Positions 1-7,028 of a stretch of DNA of 7,028 nt are shown piece by piece; positions within the stretch are counted from its first letter, which is position 1, and every line of letters starts with the position of its first letter. The notes under the pieces are model-generated. The model was not told where the DNA came from, ran no database searches, and worked only from the letters and a program-made list of their open reading frames with translations. Location of the stretch: NCBI GenBank assembly GCA_030745955.1, contig JASLNQ010000031.1, positions 1 through 7,028 on the forward strand. The letters are read 5' to 3'. Position numbers and translations under genes: made by a program. This DNA comes from Dehalococcoidia bacterium (GTDB taxonomy: Bacteria; Chloroflexota; Dehalococcoidia; UBA1151; UBA1328).

Positions 1-176
1 GGAAGCCCGGCATCACGACCGCAACTGAATGGACCCGTGAGCATCGGAGCGAAAGCGCAAGGCAAGTAGCTTCCGACGGAGTGGGCACCGTTACCAGGGC
101 CCAGGGCCTCCGGTCTCACATAGCCTTGACCGGGTGTCCGATAGAGATGCCGCACCGCAAAACACGGAGCGGTAAT

Positions 177-209
177 AAGGGTGGCACCGCGGGATATACC
201 TCGCCCCTT
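177..209 (+). promoter_or_regulatory. T-box antiterminator
   Basis: AAGGG (177-181) pairs with CCCTT (205-209), and GCG (189-191) pairs with CGC (202-204), leaving the seven-base bulge TGGCACC (182-188). This is the standard antiterminator, in which the TGGN bulge captures the free NCCA end of an uncharged tRNA. It uses bases 202-207, which also form the left arm of the terminator, so the two structures exclude each other. The pairings are read directly from the sequence. The switching mechanism is known for the family. Confidence 0.88.
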
Positions 210-234
210 GAGTTTTTGGGAGCGAGGTTTTTTT
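199..234 (+). terminator. Intrinsic terminator of the T-box
   Basis: CCTCGC (199-204) pairs perfectly with GCGAGG (222-227). The helix extends by CCC (205-207) with GGG (218-220) across a bulged A221. The loop is about ten bases, and seven T residues follow (228-234). This is a textbook rho-independent terminator and is the OFF state of the leader when tRNA-Trp is charged. Confidence 0.93.
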
Positions 235-294
235 GTGCCCGAAATTCTGTTGCCACTGTGCGCTAAGCCACTGTGAAAACAGAACGTCGGGCAC
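235..294 (+). other. Long two-part hairpin in the trpS 5' untranslated region
   Basis: GTGCCCGA (235-242) is the exact reverse complement of TCGGGCAC (287-294). Just inside it, TTCTGTT (245-251) is the exact reverse complement of AACAGAA (278-284). The two helices are separated only by a 2x2 internal loop (AA against CG), giving 15 base pairs. The 26-base loop (252-277) contains the nine-base direct repeat GCCACTGTG twice (252-260 and 267-275). The structure begins immediately after the terminator T-run and ends 41 bases before the trpS ATG. No T-run follows it, so it is not a second terminator. Its role is unknown: mRNA protection, a processing site after read-through, or control of translation are all possible. 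Confidence 0.6.
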
Positions 295-335
295 CCAGTT
301 CGGACAACAAACCGAATCGAAGGTCAAGCGACAAC

Positions 336-1364
336 ATGGCTGCGTCACAAACACAGGCGAAGAAGCGAATCCTCACCGGCATCCGGCCCACCGGGGCACT
401 GCACGTGGGCCACTACGTTGGCGCGCTGCACAACTGGGTCGCACTCCAGGACGAGTACGAGTGCTACTTCCTGATCGCCGACTACCAGGCGCTTGGCGAC
501 CACTTCCACGATATCGACCTGATCCGCGACTCGGTGCTCCAGGTAACGCTCGACTGGCTGGCGGTCGGCCTCGATCCCGAGCGGTCGTCGTTCGTGATCC
601 AGAGCTACGTCCCCGAGTTTGCGGAGCTGTCGATGTTGCTCAGCTTCATCACACCGCTCGGGATGCTCGAACGCAACCCGACTCTCAAGGGGGAGCTCGA
701 CGCGCTGCCGGTCGAGCGCCGCACCGTGGGGTTTTACTCGTACCCGATGAGCCAGGTGGCGGATATCCTGCTGCCACGAGCTCACCTGGTCCCCGTTGGC
801 GACGACCAGTCACCGCATGTCGAGATGACCCGCGAGGTCGCTCGCAAGTTCAACCGAATGTTCGGCGAGGTCTTCCCGGAATCCGACACGCTGATCGGCG
901 ATGTGCCACGGCTCCCGGGGACCGACGGGCAGGGCAAGATGAGCAAATCACGGGGCAACGCGATCATGCTGTCGGACGACGCCGACACGGTAACCAAAAA
1001 GGTCCGCAGCATGTTCACCGACCCCAACCGGATTCGGGCCGACATTCCGGGCAGGGTCGAGGGCAACCCGGTGTTCGAATACCACGATGCATTCAACCCG
1101 GACATCGCGCAGGTCGACGAGTTCAAGACCCGGTACCGTGAAGGCACCGTCGGTGATGTCGAGGTCAAGCTCGCACTCGCTGAGGCGTTGAATAACTTCC
1201 TCGACCCGATTCGCGAAAAGCGCGCCCACTACGAACAGAACATGGGCCTTGTCGAGGACGCCCTGATGTCCGGCATAGCCCACACCCGCGTGATCGCTGC
1301 CGAAACGATGAGGATGGTCCGTGACGCGATGCGTATTTCGAGCTACACGAAGAACTGGAAGTAG
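336..1364 (+). CDS. trpS: Tryptophanyl-tRNA synthetase
   Basis: Cytoplasmic class I aminoacyl-tRNA synthetase that charges tRNA-Trp with tryptophan using ATP. The protein is 342 residues, close to the usual 330-340 for bacterial TrpRS. The HIGH-type motif is HVGH at residues 23-26 within [14 protein letters not shown]. The KMSKS motif is intact at 201-205. PVGDDQ, typical of the tryptophan-binding side of TrpRS, and an ERNPTLK segment are also present, so the assignment rests on several family motifs. I chose the ATG at 336 because it puts the first strand just ahead of HVGH as in other TrpRS proteins. AAGG at 320-323 is a weak ribosome site with long spacing. The in-frame GTG at 273 would add 21 hydrophilic residues and lies in the loop of the 5' hairpin. 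The gene sits directly behind the T-box and so should be induced by tryptophan starvation. Confidence 0.96.
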
Positions 1365-1522
1365 GCCTGTATTCAGCGTTGCTGCCGCCTGCTGGCACCT
1401 CAAGAACCTTCCAAATGATTATTCACTCTCAAATATCCGATACGCCCCCTGCTGGCTGCTCCTGGCGAGGTCGCAACTAACTTCAATAGTTCGTCTCAGG
1501 AAAAACACCAGGAAAACTCATC
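1365..1522 (+). other. trpS-trpE intergenic region, no clear terminator or promoter
   Basis: These 158 bases hold no gene I can support. The nine-base word CCTGCTGGC occurs twice, at 1388-1396 and 1448-1456, exactly 60 bases apart. An AT-rich patch lies at about 1408-1442. A small hairpin can form from AACTA (1475-1479) and TAGTT (1487-1491), extended by CG/CG across a bulged C. AGGA at 1510-1513 is a good ribosome site for trpE copy 1. I see no GC-rich hairpin followed by T residues, no second T-box sequence and no convincing -35/-10 pair. Read-through from trpS is therefore plausible, but an internal promoter cannot be excluded. Confidence 0.6.
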
Positions 1523-3073
1523 ATGCCTGTCTACACGCCCGATCTCAGCACATTCAAATCGCTGGCGGTCGGCCACAACCTGATCCCCGTTTACCGGGAG
1601 ATAAGCGCCGACCTCGAAACGCCGGTCTCTGCGTTCCTCAAGACCGCAACGGGACCCTACTCGTTTCTCTTCGAGTCGGTCGAAGGCGGCGAAAACCTTG
1701 CCCGCTACAGCTTTCTCGGCAACGAGCCGTCTGAAATCCTGACCACCGGCGGCGGCACCGAGCACGGCGAGGTTGACCCGCTCGACCTGCTGCGGGACCG
1801 GATGTCGACCGTGAAGTACGCGAACGTCGAGGGACTCCCGAAGTTCCACGGCGGCGCGATCGGGTTTCTCTCCTACGACACGATCCGCTACTTCGAGCCG
1901 ACGGTCCCGCCGATAAGCGAAGAGAAGTCGGGCCTCGACGTGCCGGAATCCATTTTCATGCTTACGGATTCACTGCTGATCTTCGACCATGTCCGCCACA
2001 CGATCTTTGTCGTGTCGCACGCGGTTGTTAACGGCGACCCCGAGGCATCGTACGAACGGGCCACCCGAAAGATCGAAGAGATTATCGTCCGGCTCGACCG
2101 GCCCGTCCCGCCGGGTAACTCGCGCAGGAACTTCCTGCCGCCGTCGGGTTTTACCTCGCGTGACCCCAACCTCGATTACAGCGGGGTAGGTCATCCGGAC
2201 CAGCCCCTGCCCGAACAGGGCGAGACGACCGGTCAGCCGTACGTGCCGAACATGACCCGCGAGTACTACGGCACGATGATCGAAAAGTGCAAGCAGGCCA
2301 TCGAAGACGGCGAGGTGATCCAGGTCGTCTTCTCGCAGCGGCTGGCAAGGCGGACCCCCGTGCAGGCGTTCGACCTGTACCGGTCACTGCGGGCGATTAA
2401 CCCCTCTCCGTACATGTTCTTTCTCGACCTGAACGGCTGGCATATCATCGGAGCTTCGCCAGAACTGCTGACCCAGGTTATCGACGGCAAGATGGCTGTC
2501 CACCCGATCGCCGGGACGCGTCCGCGCGGGATAGACGCCGACCACGACGCCGAGCTCGAAAACGAGCTGATCCACGATGAAAAAGAGGTCGCCGAGCACG
2601 TGATGCTGCTTGACCTGGGCCGCAACGATGTGGGGCGTGTCTCGGACCCCGGTACCGTCGATGTAACGCAGAGCTTCGAGATCGAAAAGTACTCGCACGT
2701 GATGCACATCGTCTCGCACGTCACGGGCGACCTCTCCGGCAAGTACGACGCTTTCGACGCTATGAAGGCGGCGTTCCCGGCCGGGACCGTTTCGGGCGCT
2801 CCGAAAGTGCGGGCGATGCAGCTTATCGCCGAGCTTGAGCCCGACAAGCGGGGCCCCTACAGCGGGGCGGTCGGCTACTTCAGCTTCACCGGCAACATGG
2901 ACACCGCGATTTCACTGAGGACGATGATCCTGAAGGGCGGGGTTGCCTACCTGCAGGCCGGCGGCGGGATTGTTGCCGACAGCGATACGCAGACTGAGTA
3001 CGAAGAGACGCTCCACAAAATGGGCGCGCTGATGCGGGCTATCGACCACGCCGAGGAATCGTCGGGTGTCTAG
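1523..3073 (+). CDS. trpE: Anthranilate synthase component I, copy 1 (feedback-site motifs kept)
   Basis: Large subunit of anthranilate synthase, converting chorismate plus ammonia (from TrpG) to anthranilate and pyruvate, the first step of tryptophan synthesis. At 516 residues it has the normal family length. The N-terminal FLFES motif (Ser52) matches the LLES tryptophan-binding motif, and NPSPYMFF (293-300) is intact, so feedback inhibition by tryptophan is expected. Chorismate-site features include QVV with Gln267 (typical of ammonia-using members rather than isochorismate synthases), GASPELL, PIAGTRPRG (328-336; PabB usually has PIKGT), AEHVMLLDLGRND, His395 in HVMH, GTVSGAPKVRAMQLIAELEP and the C-terminal EYEET. 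A Pro/Gly/Asp-rich stretch at about residues 195-245 is some 23 residues longer than in the next gene. The start has AGGA nine bases upstream. Leucine codons are almost all CTG, CTC or CTT, with no TTG seen. Confidence 0.96.
   Translation: MPVYTPDLSTFKSLAVGHNLIPVYREISADLETPVSAFLKTATGPYSFLFESVEGGENLARYSFLGNEPSEILTTGGGTEHGEVDPLDLLRDRMSTVKYANVEGLPKFHGGAIGFLSYDTIRYFEPTVPPISEEKSGLDVPESIFMLTDSLLIFDHVRHTIFVVSHAVVNGDPEASYERATRKIEEIIVRLDRPVPPGNSRRNFLPPSGFTSRDPNLDYSGVGHPDQPLPEQGETTGQPYVPNMTREYYGTMIEKCKQAIEDGEVIQVVFSQRLARRTPVQAFDLYRSLRAINPSPYMFFLDLNGWHIIGASPELLTQVIDGKMAVHPIAGTRPRGIDADHDAELENELIHDEKEVAEHVMLLDLGRNDVGRVSDPGTVDVTQSFEIEKYSHVMHIVSHVTGDLSGKYDAFDAMKAAFPAGTVSGAPKVRAMQLIAELEPDKRGPYSGAVGYFSFTGNMDTAISLRTMILKGGVAYLQAGGGIVADSDTQTEYEETLHKMGALMRAIDHAEESSGV
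3053..3058 (+). promoter_or_regulatory. Ribosome binding site deciding the GTG start of trpE copy 2
   Basis: GAGGAA lies inside the end of trpE copy 1, seven bases before the GTG at 3066. No other start nearby has a comparable site, so this supports the 8-base gene overlap and translational coupling of the two trpE genes. Confidence 0.75.
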
Positions 3074-4628
3074 CCTGATCGTCAGAACGTCTTTCACTGA
3101 CTTCGAAGCAGCTTCGACACAATTCGATTTCGTGCCGGTTCGCGGTGTGGTCGACGGTATCGGGTGCCGCCCTGTCGATGCGTTCAGAATCCTCAGGGCG
3201 CCGGGTACCCCGATGGGAATGGGAAGCGAACCCGCCTTCATGCTCGAATTGGAATCACCGGAAGCCGGGGCATCGCGTTACTCCTATGTCTGTCCGCTGG
3301 CAGAAAGTGTCGTTCGCACCGGTGCAAGAGAACCGCTCGGAGACATTGATCCGATTGCTGCGTTGCGGGAGCATTTCGAATCTCGGACCATTGCCCAAAT
3401 CACGGAATTGCCGGGGTTGATTTCCGGTGCCTTCGGATACGTCGCCTACGAAGCGATCAGGCACTTCGAGCCATCGGTTGGCGACCTGCCAGGGGACCCG
3501 ACGGGCTCGCCGGTCTCCGCGTTTATCTTTCCGCGCGAGTTGCTGGTGTTCGACCGTCTCCTCGACCAACTTCACATCATCATTTACGCGTCGTCGACGG
3601 ATAAGTTCGATGCGGTGACCGAGCGCATTTCGGAAATATGTTTGGCGCTCGAACAGGCTGTTGCACGAGGCTCGATCACCGATTCGCCGGGCACGTATTT
3701 TGGTGACGAGCGACCGACTTCGGAAGTCCAGCCGGTATCGAAAATTGGCAACTACCCCGAGATGGTGCGGCTCGCTCGAAATGCAATCATCGATGGGGAG
3801 TTGATCCAGGTCGTGCTCGGACAGCGTGTCGAAATCAGCACCGCAGCCGATCCCATCGACGTTTACGAGCAGTTGTCGGCGATCAACCCATCGCCCTACA
3901 TGTACCTGCTCGATCTCGGCGACACGCAACTGATCGGCGCTTCGCCCGAGTTGATGATGAGGTCGACAAACGGCATCGCATCTGTACATCCCATCGCCGG
4001 GACCCGACCGCGCGGATCGACCGCCGAAGCCGACCTTCAGAACGAAGCAAACCTGGTCTCGAACGAGAAAGAATCGGCAGAACACGTGATGCTCGTCGAC
4101 CTCGCCCGCAATGACCTCGGGCGTGTGTGTGTACCGGGCACGGTTCGGGTTCGTTCGTTCAGACATGTCGAACGCTACTCCCACGTAATGCACCTTGTTT
4201 CACAGGTTGAGGGAACGCTTGCCGAGGGGAACGACGGAATCGACGCGTTCGAGGCCGGGTTCCCGATCGGGACGCTTTCGGGTGCACCGAAAATACGTGC
4301 CGTCCAGCTGATTGCTGAACTCGAACCGGAGGGTCGTGGTCCCTACTGCGGCGGAATCGGATGGTTCGGGGCGAACGGCGATGTCGATACCGGGACCATC
4401 ATCCGGTCGATCGTATTGCGAGACCGGACAGCACATGTCCAGGCCGGATCGGGAATCGTATTCGACTCCATTCCCGAGGCCGAAAATCTCGAATCTCTCC
4501 AGAAGGCCAAGGCACCGCTACTAGCAATCGCCCGGGCCGAAGCACTGCATGACCGGCACTGGCAAAGCAGCGAGCAAGTTTCGTCCGAATCCGCCCAAAC
4601 TGCGACAATGGCAATTACAACCGAGTAA
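3066..4628 (+). CDS. Second anthranilate synthase component I paralog with altered tryptophan-binding motif
   Basis: A complete 520-residue TrpE-family protein, clearly diverged from copy 1 and not a fragment. Catalytic features are kept: QVV with Gln248, GASPELM, PIAGTRPRG (309-317), AEHVMLVDLARND, His376 in HVMH, GTLSGAPKIRAVQLIAELEP, and the C-terminal acidic motif as EAENLES. The regulatory site differs. Aligned without gaps on the following RYS, copy 1 Ser52 (FLFES) falls on Leu62 (FMLEL), and NPSPYMFF becomes NPSPYMYL (274-281). Changes at the equivalent serine and phenylalanine are known to relieve tryptophan inhibition in enterobacterial TrpE. I infer a tryptophan-insensitive anthranilate synthase sharing TrpG. 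PIAGT argues against PabB, but another chorismate-to-amino product cannot be excluded. The CYCGGIGWF-like segment (PYCGGIGWF) and a Ser/Thr/Gln-rich tail of about 25 residues also differ from copy 1. It starts on GTG and overlaps copy 1 by 8 bases. It uses about ten TTG and two CTA leucine codons, unlike copy 1. Confidence 0.9.
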   Translation: MSSLIVRTSFTDFEAASTQFDFVPVRGVVDGIGCRPVDAFRILRAPGTPMGMGSEPAFMLELESPEAGASRYSYVCPLAESVVRTGAREPLGDIDPIAALREHFESRTIAQITELPGLISGAFGYVAYEAIRHFEPSVGDLPGDPTGSPVSAFIFPRELLVFDRLLDQLHIIIYASSTDKFDAVTERISEICLALEQAVARGSITDSPGTYFGDERPTSEVQPVSKIGNYPEMVRLARNAIIDGELIQVVLGQRVEISTAADPIDVYEQLSAINPSPYMYLLDLGDTQLIGASPELMMRSTNGIASVHPIAGTRPRGSTAEADLQNEANLVSNEKESAEHVMLVDLARNDLGRVCVPGTVRVRSFRHVERYSHVMHLVSQVEGTLAEGNDGIDAFEAGFPIGTLSGAPKIRAVQLIAELEPEGRGPYCGGIGWFGANGDVDTGTIIRSIVLRDRTAHVQAGSGIVFDSIPEAENLESLQKAKAPLLAIARAEALHDRHWQSSEQVSSESAQTATMAITTE

Positions 4629-4635
4629 ATGAACC

Positions 4636-5214
4636 ATGCTTCTCTTAATCGATAACTACGACAGCTTCACCTACAACCTGTTCCAGTACCTTTCGGAGCT
4701 AGGGGCCGAAGTAGAGGTGATTCGCAACGACAAGGCAACCGTCGACGAGCTAGCCGCGCTGGACCCCGAGCGAGTCGTGGTTTCACCCGGCCCGTCGACA
4801 CCCGACAACGCCGGTATTTCAGTTGATGTCATAAAACACTTCGCCGGAAAAGTACCGGTGCTCGGTGTTTGCCTGGGGCACCAGTGCATTGCGCAGGCCT
4901 TCGGGGGCGCAGTGAAGGGCGCCGGCGAGATCCGGCACGGCAAGACCTCGCTGATCCATCACGAAGGCGCAGGCGTGTTCCGGGGTTTGCCGCAGCCGTT
5001 CGAGGCCGTTCGCTACCATTCACTGGCGGTCGAAAAGGACACCGTGCCCGACATATTCGACGTAACCGCGAGGACCGATAACGGCATCATCATGGGCATC
5101 AAGCACAAAGAGATGGATGTCGAGGGCGTGCAGTTTCATCCCGAGTCGATCATGACCAAGGTCGGCAAGGACCTGCTACAGAATTTTCTCGACAAGCCCT
5201 CGCCCGGTAACTAG
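4636..5214 (+). CDS. trpG: Anthranilate synthase component II, glutamine amidotransferase
   Basis: Class I glutamine amidotransferase subunit that hydrolyses glutamine and passes ammonia to TrpE. The 192-residue protein is a stand-alone TrpG, not fused to TrpD or TrpE. The family opening LLLIDNYDSFTYNL, the oxyanion PGPSTP region, the nucleophile in GVCLGHQ (Cys79), RYHSLAV, and the catalytic His168 and Glu170 in QFHPES are all present. It begins seven bases after the stop of trpE copy 2. There is no clear Shine-Dalgarno sequence, so translation is probably coupled to the upstream gene. As the only amidotransferase in the window, it probably serves both TrpE proteins. Bacterial TrpG can also act as PabA for folate synthesis, and the sequence alone does not rule out such double duty. 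Confidence 0.96.
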   Translation: MLLLIDNYDSFTYNLFQYLSELGAEVEVIRNDKATVDELAALDPERVVVSPGPSTPDNAGISVDVIKHFAGKVPVLGVCLGHQCIAQAFGGAVKGAGEIRHGKTSLIHHEGAGVFRGLPQPFEAVRYHSLAVEKDTVPDIFDVTARTDNGIIMGIKHKEMDVEGVQFHPESIMTKVGKDLLQNFLDKPSPGN

Positions 5215-5283
5215 TGGTTTGGGCGAGCCGCCGGCAACGCTAAAAAACGTGAGCCGATCTGAAAGCGTAGAACAGAAGCAACC

Positions 5284-6336
5284 ATGAACATCCAACAGGC
5301 AATCCAGGCAACCGTCGACGGGGTGGACCTCGCGCGCGAAGACGCCGCCGACGCGATGCGCGAAATCATGTCGGGGGAAGCCACTCCGGCCCAGTTCGGT
5401 GCGTTTGTCACCGCACTGCGAATGAAGGGCGAGACGGCCTCCGAGATCGCGGGCATGGCGAGCGTTATGCGCGAGGTTTCGCTCCACATCGACACTGATC
5501 CTGACACTGGCATGGTCGACACCTGCGGCACGGGTGGGAGCGGTCTCAACTGGTTCAACATATCCACCGCCTCGGCGTTTGTCGTCGCGGGGGCCGGTGT
5601 GCAGGTGGCCAAGCACGGCAACCGCGCAATGTCGGGCTCTTCCGGAAGCGCCGATGTGCTCGAGGCGCTGGGGGTGAATATCGGCCTCGGTCCCGATGGC
5701 GTGAAGAACTGCATTACCGAGGCCGGAATCGGGTTCATGTTCGCCCAGGCGTTCCACCCGGCGATGAAATTCGCCGGACCGCTCCGCCCGCAGATCGGGA
5801 TTCGCACGATATTCAACTTCCTGGGACCGCTGACCAACCCGGCAGGGGCGACCCGGCAGGTGGTGGGTGTTTCCGACGCTATGTTCACCGAGCGAATCGC
5901 CAGGGCACTTGAGATCCTGGGGACCGAGTATGCATTCGTCGTTCATGCCGAATCGGGGGGCGACGAGGTCGATATCGAGGGCCACACGCTGATATACCAG
6001 GTCAACTCGGACGGTGTAAAACGCCGCCGGACCCGGCCTGCCGACTTCGGGCTCCCGGAGGGCAGGCGCGAGCACCTGGTCGCCGATTCCGTTGAGCATT
6101 CCGCCGAAATCGTCCGCGGCATATTCGCGGGGGCCGGCGGGGGTCACAACGCGCCGGTTGCGCCCGAGACTTCACGCCGCAACGTGGTTGTACTCAACGC
6201 CGCCACCGCCCTGTTGGCAACCGGCAAGGCGGCTGCCTTCCAGGAGGCGTCGGCGATGGCCCAGGACTCGATCGACTCCGGGGCGGCGCAGGCAAAACTC
6301 GACGCGCTGGCCAGGGTGAGCCAGGAGCAATCTTGA
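5284..6336 (+). CDS. trpD: Anthranilate phosphoribosyltransferase
   Basis: Transfers the phosphoribosyl group of PRPP to anthranilate, giving phosphoribosyl-anthranilate. The 350-residue length is normal. The N-terminal helical domain is followed by the PRPP-binding DTCGTGGSG motif (glycine loop 82-87), NIST (92-95) and KHGNRAMSGSSGSADVLEALG from residue 110. Downstream are FAQAFHPAMK and RTIFNFLGPLTNPA for anthranilate binding, and GDEVD, which fits the metal-binding Asp-Glu pair. All diagnostic motifs are present and no frameshift is seen. It follows trpG after 69 bases. Its ribosome site is weak (AGAAG at 5274-5278). Its last four bases overlap the trpC start, which indicates close coupling with that gene. 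Confidence 0.96.
   Translation: MNIQQAIQATVDGVDLAREDAADAMREIMSGEATPAQFGAFVTALRMKGETASEIAGMASVMREVSLHIDTDPDTGMVDTCGTGGSGLNWFNISTASAFVVAGAGVQVAKHGNRAMSGSSGSADVLEALGVNIGLGPDGVKNCITEAGIGFMFAQAFHPAMKFAGPLRPQIGIRTIFNFLGPLTNPAGATRQVVGVSDAMFTERIARALEILGTEYAFVVHAESGGDEVDIEGHTLIYQVNSDGVKRRRTRPADFGLPEGRREHLVADSVEHSAEIVRGIFAGAGGGHNAPVAPETSRRNVVVLNAATALLATGKAAAFQEASAMAQDSIDSGAAQAKLDALARVSQEQS
6323..6327 (+). promoter_or_regulatory. Ribosome binding site deciding the TTG start of trpC
   Basis: AGGAG inside the end of trpD lies five bases before the TTG at 6333. This strong site at normal spacing supports TTG as the trpC start and the TTGA overlap with the trpD stop. Confidence 0.75.
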
Positions 6337-7028
6337 CCGAGATACCCGGAATCCTTGGCGAAATTGTGAAGAAGCGCCTGGTCCGAATCGAAGAGGCGAA
6401 GAAGAATCGCGCCCTTGAGGAAGTTCGAACGATCGCCGAACACTCCCGCGCCACGCTGTCGCTGCAAAGGAAGATTGGCAGCAAAAACGGCATCTCACTG
6501 ATCGCCGAAATGAAGCGGTCATCGCCATCTGCGGGTTCGCTCGACCCCCGGCTCGATCCTGCCAACCGCGCCAGCCTGTACTGCGATGCCGGTGCCGATG
6601 TCATCTCGGTCCTAACCGAGCAGGACCACTTTTCGGGCTCGATCGACGACCTGGCGGCGGCATCGGTGATCGCACGCGCCTCGGGCGTGCCGTCGCTCCG
6701 GAAAGACTTCATCGTTGACGAATACCAGGTGTACGAAGCACGCGCTGCCGGGGCCGACTGCATCCTGTTGATCATCGCCATCCTCGACCCGGCACAATAC
6801 GCCGACCTCTTCACGCTCTCGGTTTCGATGGGCATGGACGTGCTGGTCGAAATTTTCGATGAGCCGGAACTGGAAGCGGCCATGCAGGTCGATCCACGGA
6901 TAGTCGGGATCAATAACCGGAACCTGAAAACGCTGGAGACATCGCTTTCAGTGTTCGAGACGATAGCGCCCAAAATCCCGGCCGACCGCATACGGGTCGC
7001 CGAGAGCGGCATGAGTGACGCCGCCGAT
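6333..7028 (+). CDS. trpC: Indole-3-glycerol phosphate synthase, 3' end outside the window
   Basis: Converts carboxyphenylamino-deoxyribulose phosphate to indole-3-glycerol phosphate, the ring-closing step of the pathway. The frame is open from TTG at 6333 to the window edge (232 codons, ending on a codon boundary), and about 25-35 residues should be missing. The (beta/alpha)8-barrel active-site residues of the family are visible: Glu59 and Lys61 in IAEMKRSSPSAG, Lys124 in LRKDFIVDEYQVYEARAAGAD, Glu173 in LVEIF, Asn194 in INNRNLKT, and Glu224-Ser225 in AESG. TEQDHFSGS matches the usual TExxFFGGS region. One small deviation is LVEIFDE where most relatives have VEVHDE. The catalytic Glu is kept. 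There is no in-frame ATG before residue 60, which lies inside the active-site motif, so the TTG start with its AGGAG site is the best choice. Confidence 0.94.
   Translation, partial: MTEIPGILGEIVKKRLVRIEEAKKNRALEEVRTIAEHSRATLSLQRKIGSKNGISLIAEMKRSSPSAGSLDPRLDPANRASLYCDAGADVISVLTEQDHFSGSIDDLAAASVIARASGVPSLRKDFIVDEYQVYEARAAGADCILLIIAILDPAQYADLFTLSVSMGMDVLVEIFDEPELEAAMQVDPRIVGINNRNLKTLETSLSVFETIAPKIPADRIRVAESGMSDAAD

Follow-up and report, generated by a model that had tools for sequence, protein, structure and literature searches.

An overlapping pair of trpE-family genes recurs in one family of Dehalococcoidia and may encode anthranilate synthase isoenzymes that differ in feedback

Introduction

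Why would a tryptophan operon carry two complete genes for component I of anthranilate synthase, a textbook feedback-controlled enzyme, in front of a single gene for the glutamine amidotransferase subunit? The question is raised by a stretch of DNA of 7,028 nucleotides (nt) from a Dehalococcoidia bacterium (contig JASLNQ010000031.1, positions 1 to 7,028; 'the window' means this whole stretch), in which two trpE-family genes, trpE1 and trpE2, lie in tandem and overlap, directly followed by trpG. Their products are called E1 and E2 here. An initial annotation had described the genes as full-length copies of 516 and 520 residues with an 8-base overlap and a GAGGAA site belonging to the second, and the sequence bears this out.

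We report that the pair recurs in related genomes, that E2 is an old offshoot of TrpE, and that it retains the catalytic residues of the enzyme while its tryptophan (Trp) pocket is altered. The reading we favour, at a probability of about one half, is that E2 derives from TrpE and is an anthranilate synthase isoenzyme whose feedback has changed, sharing TrpG with E1.

Results

Two trpE-family genes overlap ahead of one trpG

The features on which the question turns are the following.

1523..3073, plus strand: trpE1, anthranilate synthase component I, 516 residues, ATG start (TIGR00564 534.4 bits, cut-off 517.7; Pfam N-terminal and catalytic domains)
3066..4628, plus strand: trpE2, diverged TrpE paralogue, 520 residues, GTG start (PF04715 and PF00425; TIGR00564 429.7 bits, under the cut-off; trees; residues)
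3053..3073, plus strand: GAGGAA site and 8-base overlap GTGTCTAG, which would couple E2 translation to that of E1
4636..5214, plus strand: trpG, glutamine amidotransferase subunit, probably common to E1 and E2 (TIGR00566 263.5 bits, cut-off 121.05)

Each of the two proteins matches the Pfam domains Anth_synt_I_N and Chorismate_bind, and each contains all three of the motifs PIAGT, QVV and HVMH. Their alignment spans 512 columns with 38% identity (E 2e-111), so the pair is neither a recent repeat nor an assembly duplicate, as the initial annotation had argued. The overlap is exactly 8 bases (3066-3073), with GAGGAA (3053-3058) placed 7 nt 5' of the GTG of trpE2. A single trpG lies inside the window, 3' of trpE2.

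The pair recurs in one family

Named relatives in protein searches were Chloroflexi and Dehalococcoidia records and Candidatus (Ca.) Lucifugimonas marina. We sampled 76 genomes of one family, that of the pair-carrying genome G185, apparently from the cultivated Ca. Lucifugimonas marina; we infer that this is a SAR202 family (Chloroflexota, Dehalococcoidia). Of the 76 genomes, 68 contained chorismate-binding genes. E1 and E2 stand in tandem in 30/76, and a further 28 have E1 without E2, among them G411, with two E1-type matches on two contigs, and G401, in which the contig ends behind E1. Nine carry E1 and a more distant second chorismate-binding protein elsewhere (one of these, G447, additionally has a PabB-like gene), one has E2 at a contig edge (G431), and eight gave no match at all. 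A search of related genomes for trpE-trpE-trpG, which had been proposed along with the initial annotation, has turned up the arrangement repeatedly.

The order trpS-trpE1-trpE2-trpG-trpD-trpC recurs across the tandem loci; genes are missing at contig ends in two (L151 and L177), and open reading frames (ORFs) are inserted in three (L153, L154 and L169). Two ORFs separate trpE2 from trpG at L154:7547-9254 (genome G424) and at L169:2980-4703 (G438); judged by eye, they resemble a DNA methyltransferase and a restriction-type nuclease. A single TrpG match exceeds the cut-off in 29 of the 30 tandem genomes and two do so in the other (G415), and the layout fits the proposal of one TrpG for the pair; G411, which lacks E2, also has two.

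The junction of the two genes is conserved as well. A GTG start in the same 8-base register as in the window is present at 18/30 tandem loci, and at 30/30 a possible in-frame E2 start falls at -28 to +1, counted from the final base of the E1 stop codon. The recurrence in 30/76 genomes and the GTG register in 18/30 place the pair beyond chance. Translation of E2 would be coupled to the E1 stop.

When the window's E2 was used as a query against the 393 genomes of one class (that of G002), six genomes scored above 440 bits and all six belong to this family; diverged E2 sequences score below ordinary TrpE, so this search could miss others. In a separate contig scan the 80 loci listed were mostly ordinary TrpE-like ones; one of them, itself from a family member, held two TrpE-like genes, with no systematic search made outside the family. 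In the literature on tandem or duplicated trpE genes and on tryptophan synthesis in SAR202, as far as openly available text goes (most subscription papers lie outside it), no description of this pair was found. The word 'tryptophan' is absent from the main text, as available, of the SAR202 cultivation paper (PMC10444878), and trp genes of the Sargasso Sea are, from its accessible part, the subject of another (PMC2395257).

E2 branches with the family's own TrpE

Copy 2 fell outside the PabB clade in 3/3 maximum-likelihood (ML) trees. In a quick ML tree of 90 rows, E2 formed one clade (support 100, starred), sister to the family's E1 (96, starred) and inside Chloroflexota TrpE, with 12 PabB references separate (97, starred). 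An ML tree of 62 rows recovered E2 (100/100, starred), E1 with E2 (100/98, starred), E1 alone (89/88) and PabB (99/98, starred); one of 39 slower rows again joined E1 with E2 (100/99, starred), on the TrpE side, with E1 alone at 89/93. Approximately unbiased (AU) tests of E2 joined to PabB gave p values of 0.067 with the 62 rows and 0.005 with the 39 slower rows, which were chosen after the first result. Joining E2 to Firmicutes PabB alone was rejected (p 0.01, 62 rows).

These results are best read as a single old tandem duplication of trpE, placed at or close to the root of the SAR202 family and followed by losses. The initial annotation had left room for an acquired second copy; such horizontal acquisition is unsupported, E2 being sister to the family's own E1. 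On the quick E1 tree (67 loci), E2 switches between present and absent at least 7 times, or 5 times if only starred branches are counted, and given the single origin of E2 these changes are mostly losses. In the close relatives G430 and G432, which lack E2 and possibly share one loss event, trpG follows directly behind E1.

By profile score, the best NCBIfam model for E2 is TIGR00564 (trpE_most), at the sub-threshold score given above. Against PabB models it scores 250.1 bits with TIGR00553 (cut-off 328.4) and 292.1 with TIGR01824, PabB-clade2 (cut-off 408.55), reaching neither; two Firmicutes PabB references also miss both cut-offs (315.6/388.1 and 317.4/398.8). The isochorismate synthase model TIGR00543 (cut-off 224.75) gives 147.2 bits for E2 and 166.1 for E1, both below the cut-off. 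A displaced standard PabB is accordingly unsupported by the profile scores and the three trees, with the reservation that the first AU test did not reject it at 0.05.

We also compared alignment columns among 16 TrpE references, 11 PabB references and 26 E2 proteins (residue numbers here and below are Escherichia coli TrpE positions, mapped by alignment). Nine columns separate TrpE from PabB in this set. E2 shows the TrpE state without exception at 265 and 305, in 18/26 at 21 and partially at 282, 423 and 427; it has lost that state at 20, 355 and 369, with a PabB-like Ser/Asn at 355. Position 265, which follows QV, is Val in 16/16 TrpE and 26/26 E2 and Asn in 11/11 PabB; position 305 is Gly in 26/26 E2 and Ser/Cys in the PabB references. 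Of the three motifs, only the Val after QV distinguishes the two reference groups. The solved PabB structure 7pi1, which we take to be the B. subtilis protein, carries PIAGT and YSHVMH, so PIAGT and HVMH cannot decide the product of E2. The initial annotation had argued for two active enzymes from PIAGT, QVV and HVMH; these stand in both copies and the catalytic residues are intact, while as evidence of TrpE activity the argument is weakened by 7pi1.

E2 keeps the catalytic residues and changes the Trp pocket

The catalytic positions compared, some of them taken from the accessible text of a review (PMC10464499), were Gln263, Gly328, Thr329, Glu361, His398, Thr425, Tyr449, Arg469, Gly485, Glu495, Glu498 and Lys502. 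The E2 set comprised 121 raw rows (31 from the window and family genomes, plus 57 close orthologues and 33 mid ones from protein searches, with overlap between them), reduced to 103 non-redundant ones. Both window copies have the full list, and every position is retained in at least 102/103 E2 rows: Gly328, Thr329, His398, Thr425, Tyr449, Gly485, Glu495 and Glu498 in 103/103, Gln263 and Lys502 in 102/103, and Glu361 and Arg469 in 102/103 with one row unreadable. Position 358 is Glu in 97 rows and Asp in 6.

The Trp pocket presents a different picture. Trp contacts in Serratia TrpE are given in the same review, as far as its text is accessible, as Ser40, Pro291, Met293, Val453 and Tyr455 (PMC10464499). 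Family E1 proteins retain Ser40 in 66/67, Pro291 and Met293 in 67/67 each, Val453 in 53/67 and Tyr455 in 65/67; E1 of the window has all five, and its E2 has Leu, Pro, Met, Ile and Trp. In the latter, L62 stands for Ser40, W433 for Tyr455, and G443 and T444 for Ala/Cys465 and Ile466. Across the E2 rows, position 455 is Trp in 102/103, 465 is Gly/Ser in 101/103 and the nearby 466 is Thr in 103/103, with Pro291 in 93/103 and Met293 in 94/103. For comparison, Tyr455 is found in 52/53 and Ile466 in 51/53 of the TrpE-like genes with trp context among the loci of the contig scan, one of these genes being a family E2.

At position 40, Ser is present in 65/103 E2 rows and 27/33 mid orthologues have Gly. 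Among the 57 close orthologues Leu occurs there in the window's E2 alone (residue 62, 3249-3251), the other 56 having Ser, and desensitisation of the whole clade through loss of Ser40 is therefore unsupported.

E2 evolves under purifying selection

For 7 locus pairs, NG86 (Nei-Gojobori) dN/dS was about 0.12-0.27 for E2 and about 0.04-0.09 for E1; the values are rough, as dS approaches or exceeds 1 in several pairs. Purifying selection acts on E2, which evolves faster than E1. For 17 rows of each protein from the close clade of the window, mean pairwise identity was 0.597 in the N-terminal and 0.811 in the catalytic domain of E2, versus 0.834 and 0.922 in E1. E2 divergence is about 2.4 times that of E1, evenly over both domains. 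We considered and dropped the idea that E2 is specially relaxed in its N-terminal domain, the ratio of N-terminal to catalytic divergence being about twofold in E1 and E2 alike.

Alternative roles for E2

There is a small but real chance that E2 has ceased to be an anthranilate synthase and, after the duplication in the trp operon, became a different chorismate aminase that depends on TrpG; the most plausible case is that p-aminobenzoate (pABA) synthesis arose from TrpE a second, independent time. In this case E2 would be aminodeoxychorismate synthase component I newly evolved from TrpE and TrpG would serve both partners, as the amphibolic TrpG/PabA of Bacillus does; we consider it unlikely. 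No TIGR00553 match exceeds the cut-off in the 76 genomes (0/76; the cut-off misses some true PabB proteins) and no third PF00425 protein was found in the 30 tandem genomes, yet folK and dihydropteroate synthase (DHPS) are both present in 26/30 (across the family, folK in 64/76 and DHPS over the cut-off in 65/76). The only genome with a pabB-pabA-Aminotran_4 cluster, G447, lacks E2, and the E2 states at 355 (Ser/Asn), 450 (Cys) and 455 (Trp, also in 6/11 PabB) occur in PabB too. Against this, 25/28 genomes with E1 only likewise have folK and DHPS and no PabB match; they include G299 and G333, in each of which the trp locus sits on a contig that makes up almost the entire genome (2.75 and 2.61 Mb, respectively). 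Since such genomes equally lack a PabB match, E2 is not needed to explain folate synthesis, and folate genes do not track E2 across the family. PabB exceeds the TIGR00553 cut-off in just 120/393 genomes of the class of G002, a lower bound (at least 120), as this cut-off misses the two Firmicutes references. At 265 and 305 E2 retains Val and Gly, unlike PabB with its Asn and Ser/Cys. Most genomes have a second class IV aminotransferase whether or not they carry E2; it is ambiguous in type (branched-chain, D-amino-acid or aminodeoxychorismate lyase) and does not track E2 either. The trees group E2 with E1, but convergence would suffice for a new pABA enzyme and lies beyond a tree's power. We also dropped the idea that E2 and a separate PabB are alternatives in different genomes, prompted by the nine genomes with a second protein: that of L223 (G441) is an isochorismate synthase (232.8 bits, cut-off 224.75). 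Of the distant proteins, the family scan covered this one, along with the PabB-like copy G447:C35. At L220 (G447:C35), a PabB-like gene under the cut-offs is followed by a pabA-like amidotransferase gene and Aminotran_4.

Three further roles appear less probable still. E2 might act mainly as a partner or regulator of E1, an E1-E2 heteromer altering Trp cooperativity or competing for TrpG, with catalysis secondary. The conserved overlapping start would suit this, as would a pocket that is altered while catalytic residues are retained, and in the mycobacterial TrpE homodimer, according to the accessible text of PMC6437058, Trp-motif loops of the two subunits meet at the interface; the near-complete catalytic retention is hard to explain on this account, which we hold to be rather improbable. 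That E2 gives a different amination product, for instance 2-amino-2-deoxyisochorismate if it no longer eliminates pyruvate, or supplies a side pathway, is doubtful in a somewhat higher degree: clade-wide changes close in sequence to the active site (Ile466Thr by Arg469, Ala423 by Thr425) would fit it, but His398 is kept and no product-using gene was recognised among the ORFs of the loci read, in a search that was not systematic. A redundant copy on its way out would account for the changes in E2 presence, including those in G430 and G432, and for its faster evolution; with dN/dS well below 1 in 7/7 pairs, catalytic residues fixed across a deep clade and open frames in 30 loci, we give this very little credence.

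Neighbouring genes and a putative leader

All genes of the window are on the plus strand, in the order trpS-trpE1-trpE2-trpG-trpD-trpC. The remaining features are these.

273..1364, plus strand: trpS, tryptophanyl-tRNA synthetase, 5' of trpE1 (TIGR00233 272.6 bits, cut-off 176.75)
1415..1480, plus strand: possible leader ORF, MIIHSQISDTPPAGCSWRGRN and a stop codon, of putative function, with the recurring TGGCGNRGY motif at 1463-1471
5284..6336, plus strand: trpD, anthranilate phosphoribosyltransferase (TIGR01245 379.8 bits, cut-off 199.05)
6333..7028, plus strand: trpC, indole-3-glycerol phosphate synthase, truncated by the end of the window (PF00218 232.5 bits)

In most loci read trpS lies directly 5' of trpE1, with gaps of 0 to 428 nt (66 measured). 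Among gaps of 60 nt or longer, TGGCGNRGY occurs in 32/48 (mean after shuffling 0.345) and is lacking in 16/48; 18 further gaps are shorter than 60 nt. In 28/32 cases the motif lies inside a short ORF containing Trp-Arg-Ser or Trp-Arg-Gly, and motif and ORF together look like a trp leader. The motif is found both with and without E2 (gaps of L153-L206). An Rfam scan found no match in the window, and tRNA and promoter/terminator scans likewise gave none.

Discussion

We propose that E2 arose by a single tandem duplication of trpE and, where retained, would have remained immediately 3' of E1, its start overlapping or abutting that gene, and ahead of trpG. A single message would encode both proteins, with translation of E2 coupled to the E1 stop, and a single TrpG would supply the two with ammonia. 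Most likely E2 still converts chorismate to anthranilate by amination and release of pyruvate. E1 would keep an ordinary Trp site, and the feedback of tryptophan on E2 would be changed or lost. The upstream control layer, the putative leader, would act on both copies, so that they would differ at the level of the enzyme, in the Trp pocket. The pathway would then have two entry points, one under feedback control and the other less controlled. In proposing isoenzymes with different regulation the initial annotation was plausible, the pocket being kept in E1 and altered in E2; the product of E2 stays a prediction from sequence.

Several observations weigh against E2 being an anthranilate synthase isoenzyme with changed feedback. 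E2 misses the curated TIGR00564 cut-off, it has been lost repeatedly within the family, and its N-terminal domain shows no special relaxation. Close orthologues keep Ser40 in 56/57 and both Pro291 and Met293 in 57/57, and most of the close E2 clade may still bind Trp. In addition, E2 carries clade-wide changes at positions invariant or nearly so in TrpE: Asp355Asn/Ser (PabB-like), Gly369Ala, Ala423Ile (in many) and Ile466Thr. Some of them adjoin active-site residues, and they could signify a new activity, beyond altered feedback.

Among known systems, TrpE (TIGR00564; solved structures 7bvd, 5cwa and 1i7q) shares with the pair the two-domain architecture, the catalytic residues, the trp operon and the TrpG neighbour. 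E1 passes its cut-off, whereas E2 lies under it, in a clade of its own and with a changed Trp pocket, and the copies are two in tandem. PabB (TIGR00553, TIGR01824; 7pi1) resembles E2 in fold, in PIAGT and HVMH and, in 6/11 references, in Trp at 455, but E2 has Val265/Gly305 instead of Asn/Ser, low PabB scores and a place among TrpE. The presumed sharing of TrpG has a likeness in Bacillus, where one amidotransferase is common to the TrpE and PabB partners.

Two trpE genes in one prokaryotic genome are already known, as far as the accessible texts go. Pseudomonas aeruginosa L10 has two trpE and two trpG copies under separate locus tags (PMC5980988), Natronomonas pharaonis two homologues of each (PMC1854888), and two trpE genes of Azospirillum brasilense are indicated by a title cited in PMC5399880 and PMC5980988. 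In P. aeruginosa L10 and N. pharaonis the second component I gene comes with a second trpG, whereas the SAR202 copies are adjacent and overlapping, ahead of one trpG; in the literature accessible to us an overlapping SAR202 pair was not found described. Duplicated component I with different feedback is suggested for Ruta graveolens by a title cited in PMC10464499, which names Trp-sensitive and Trp-insensitive anthranilate synthase isoenzymes; those are plant genes and no operon pair, and in SAR202 the difference in feedback is predicted from residues.

SAR202 bacteria are ubiquitous in the ocean, according to the accessible part of PMC10444878. If E2 were instead a pABA enzyme, one operon and one glutaminase would feed both tryptophan and folate. 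With a standard-site and an altered-site copy adjacent, the pair is a natural experiment on feedback control and on the partitioning of chorismate after duplication. It is carried by the apparent genome of the cultivated Ca. Lucifugimonas marina (G185), and this makes the pair testable.

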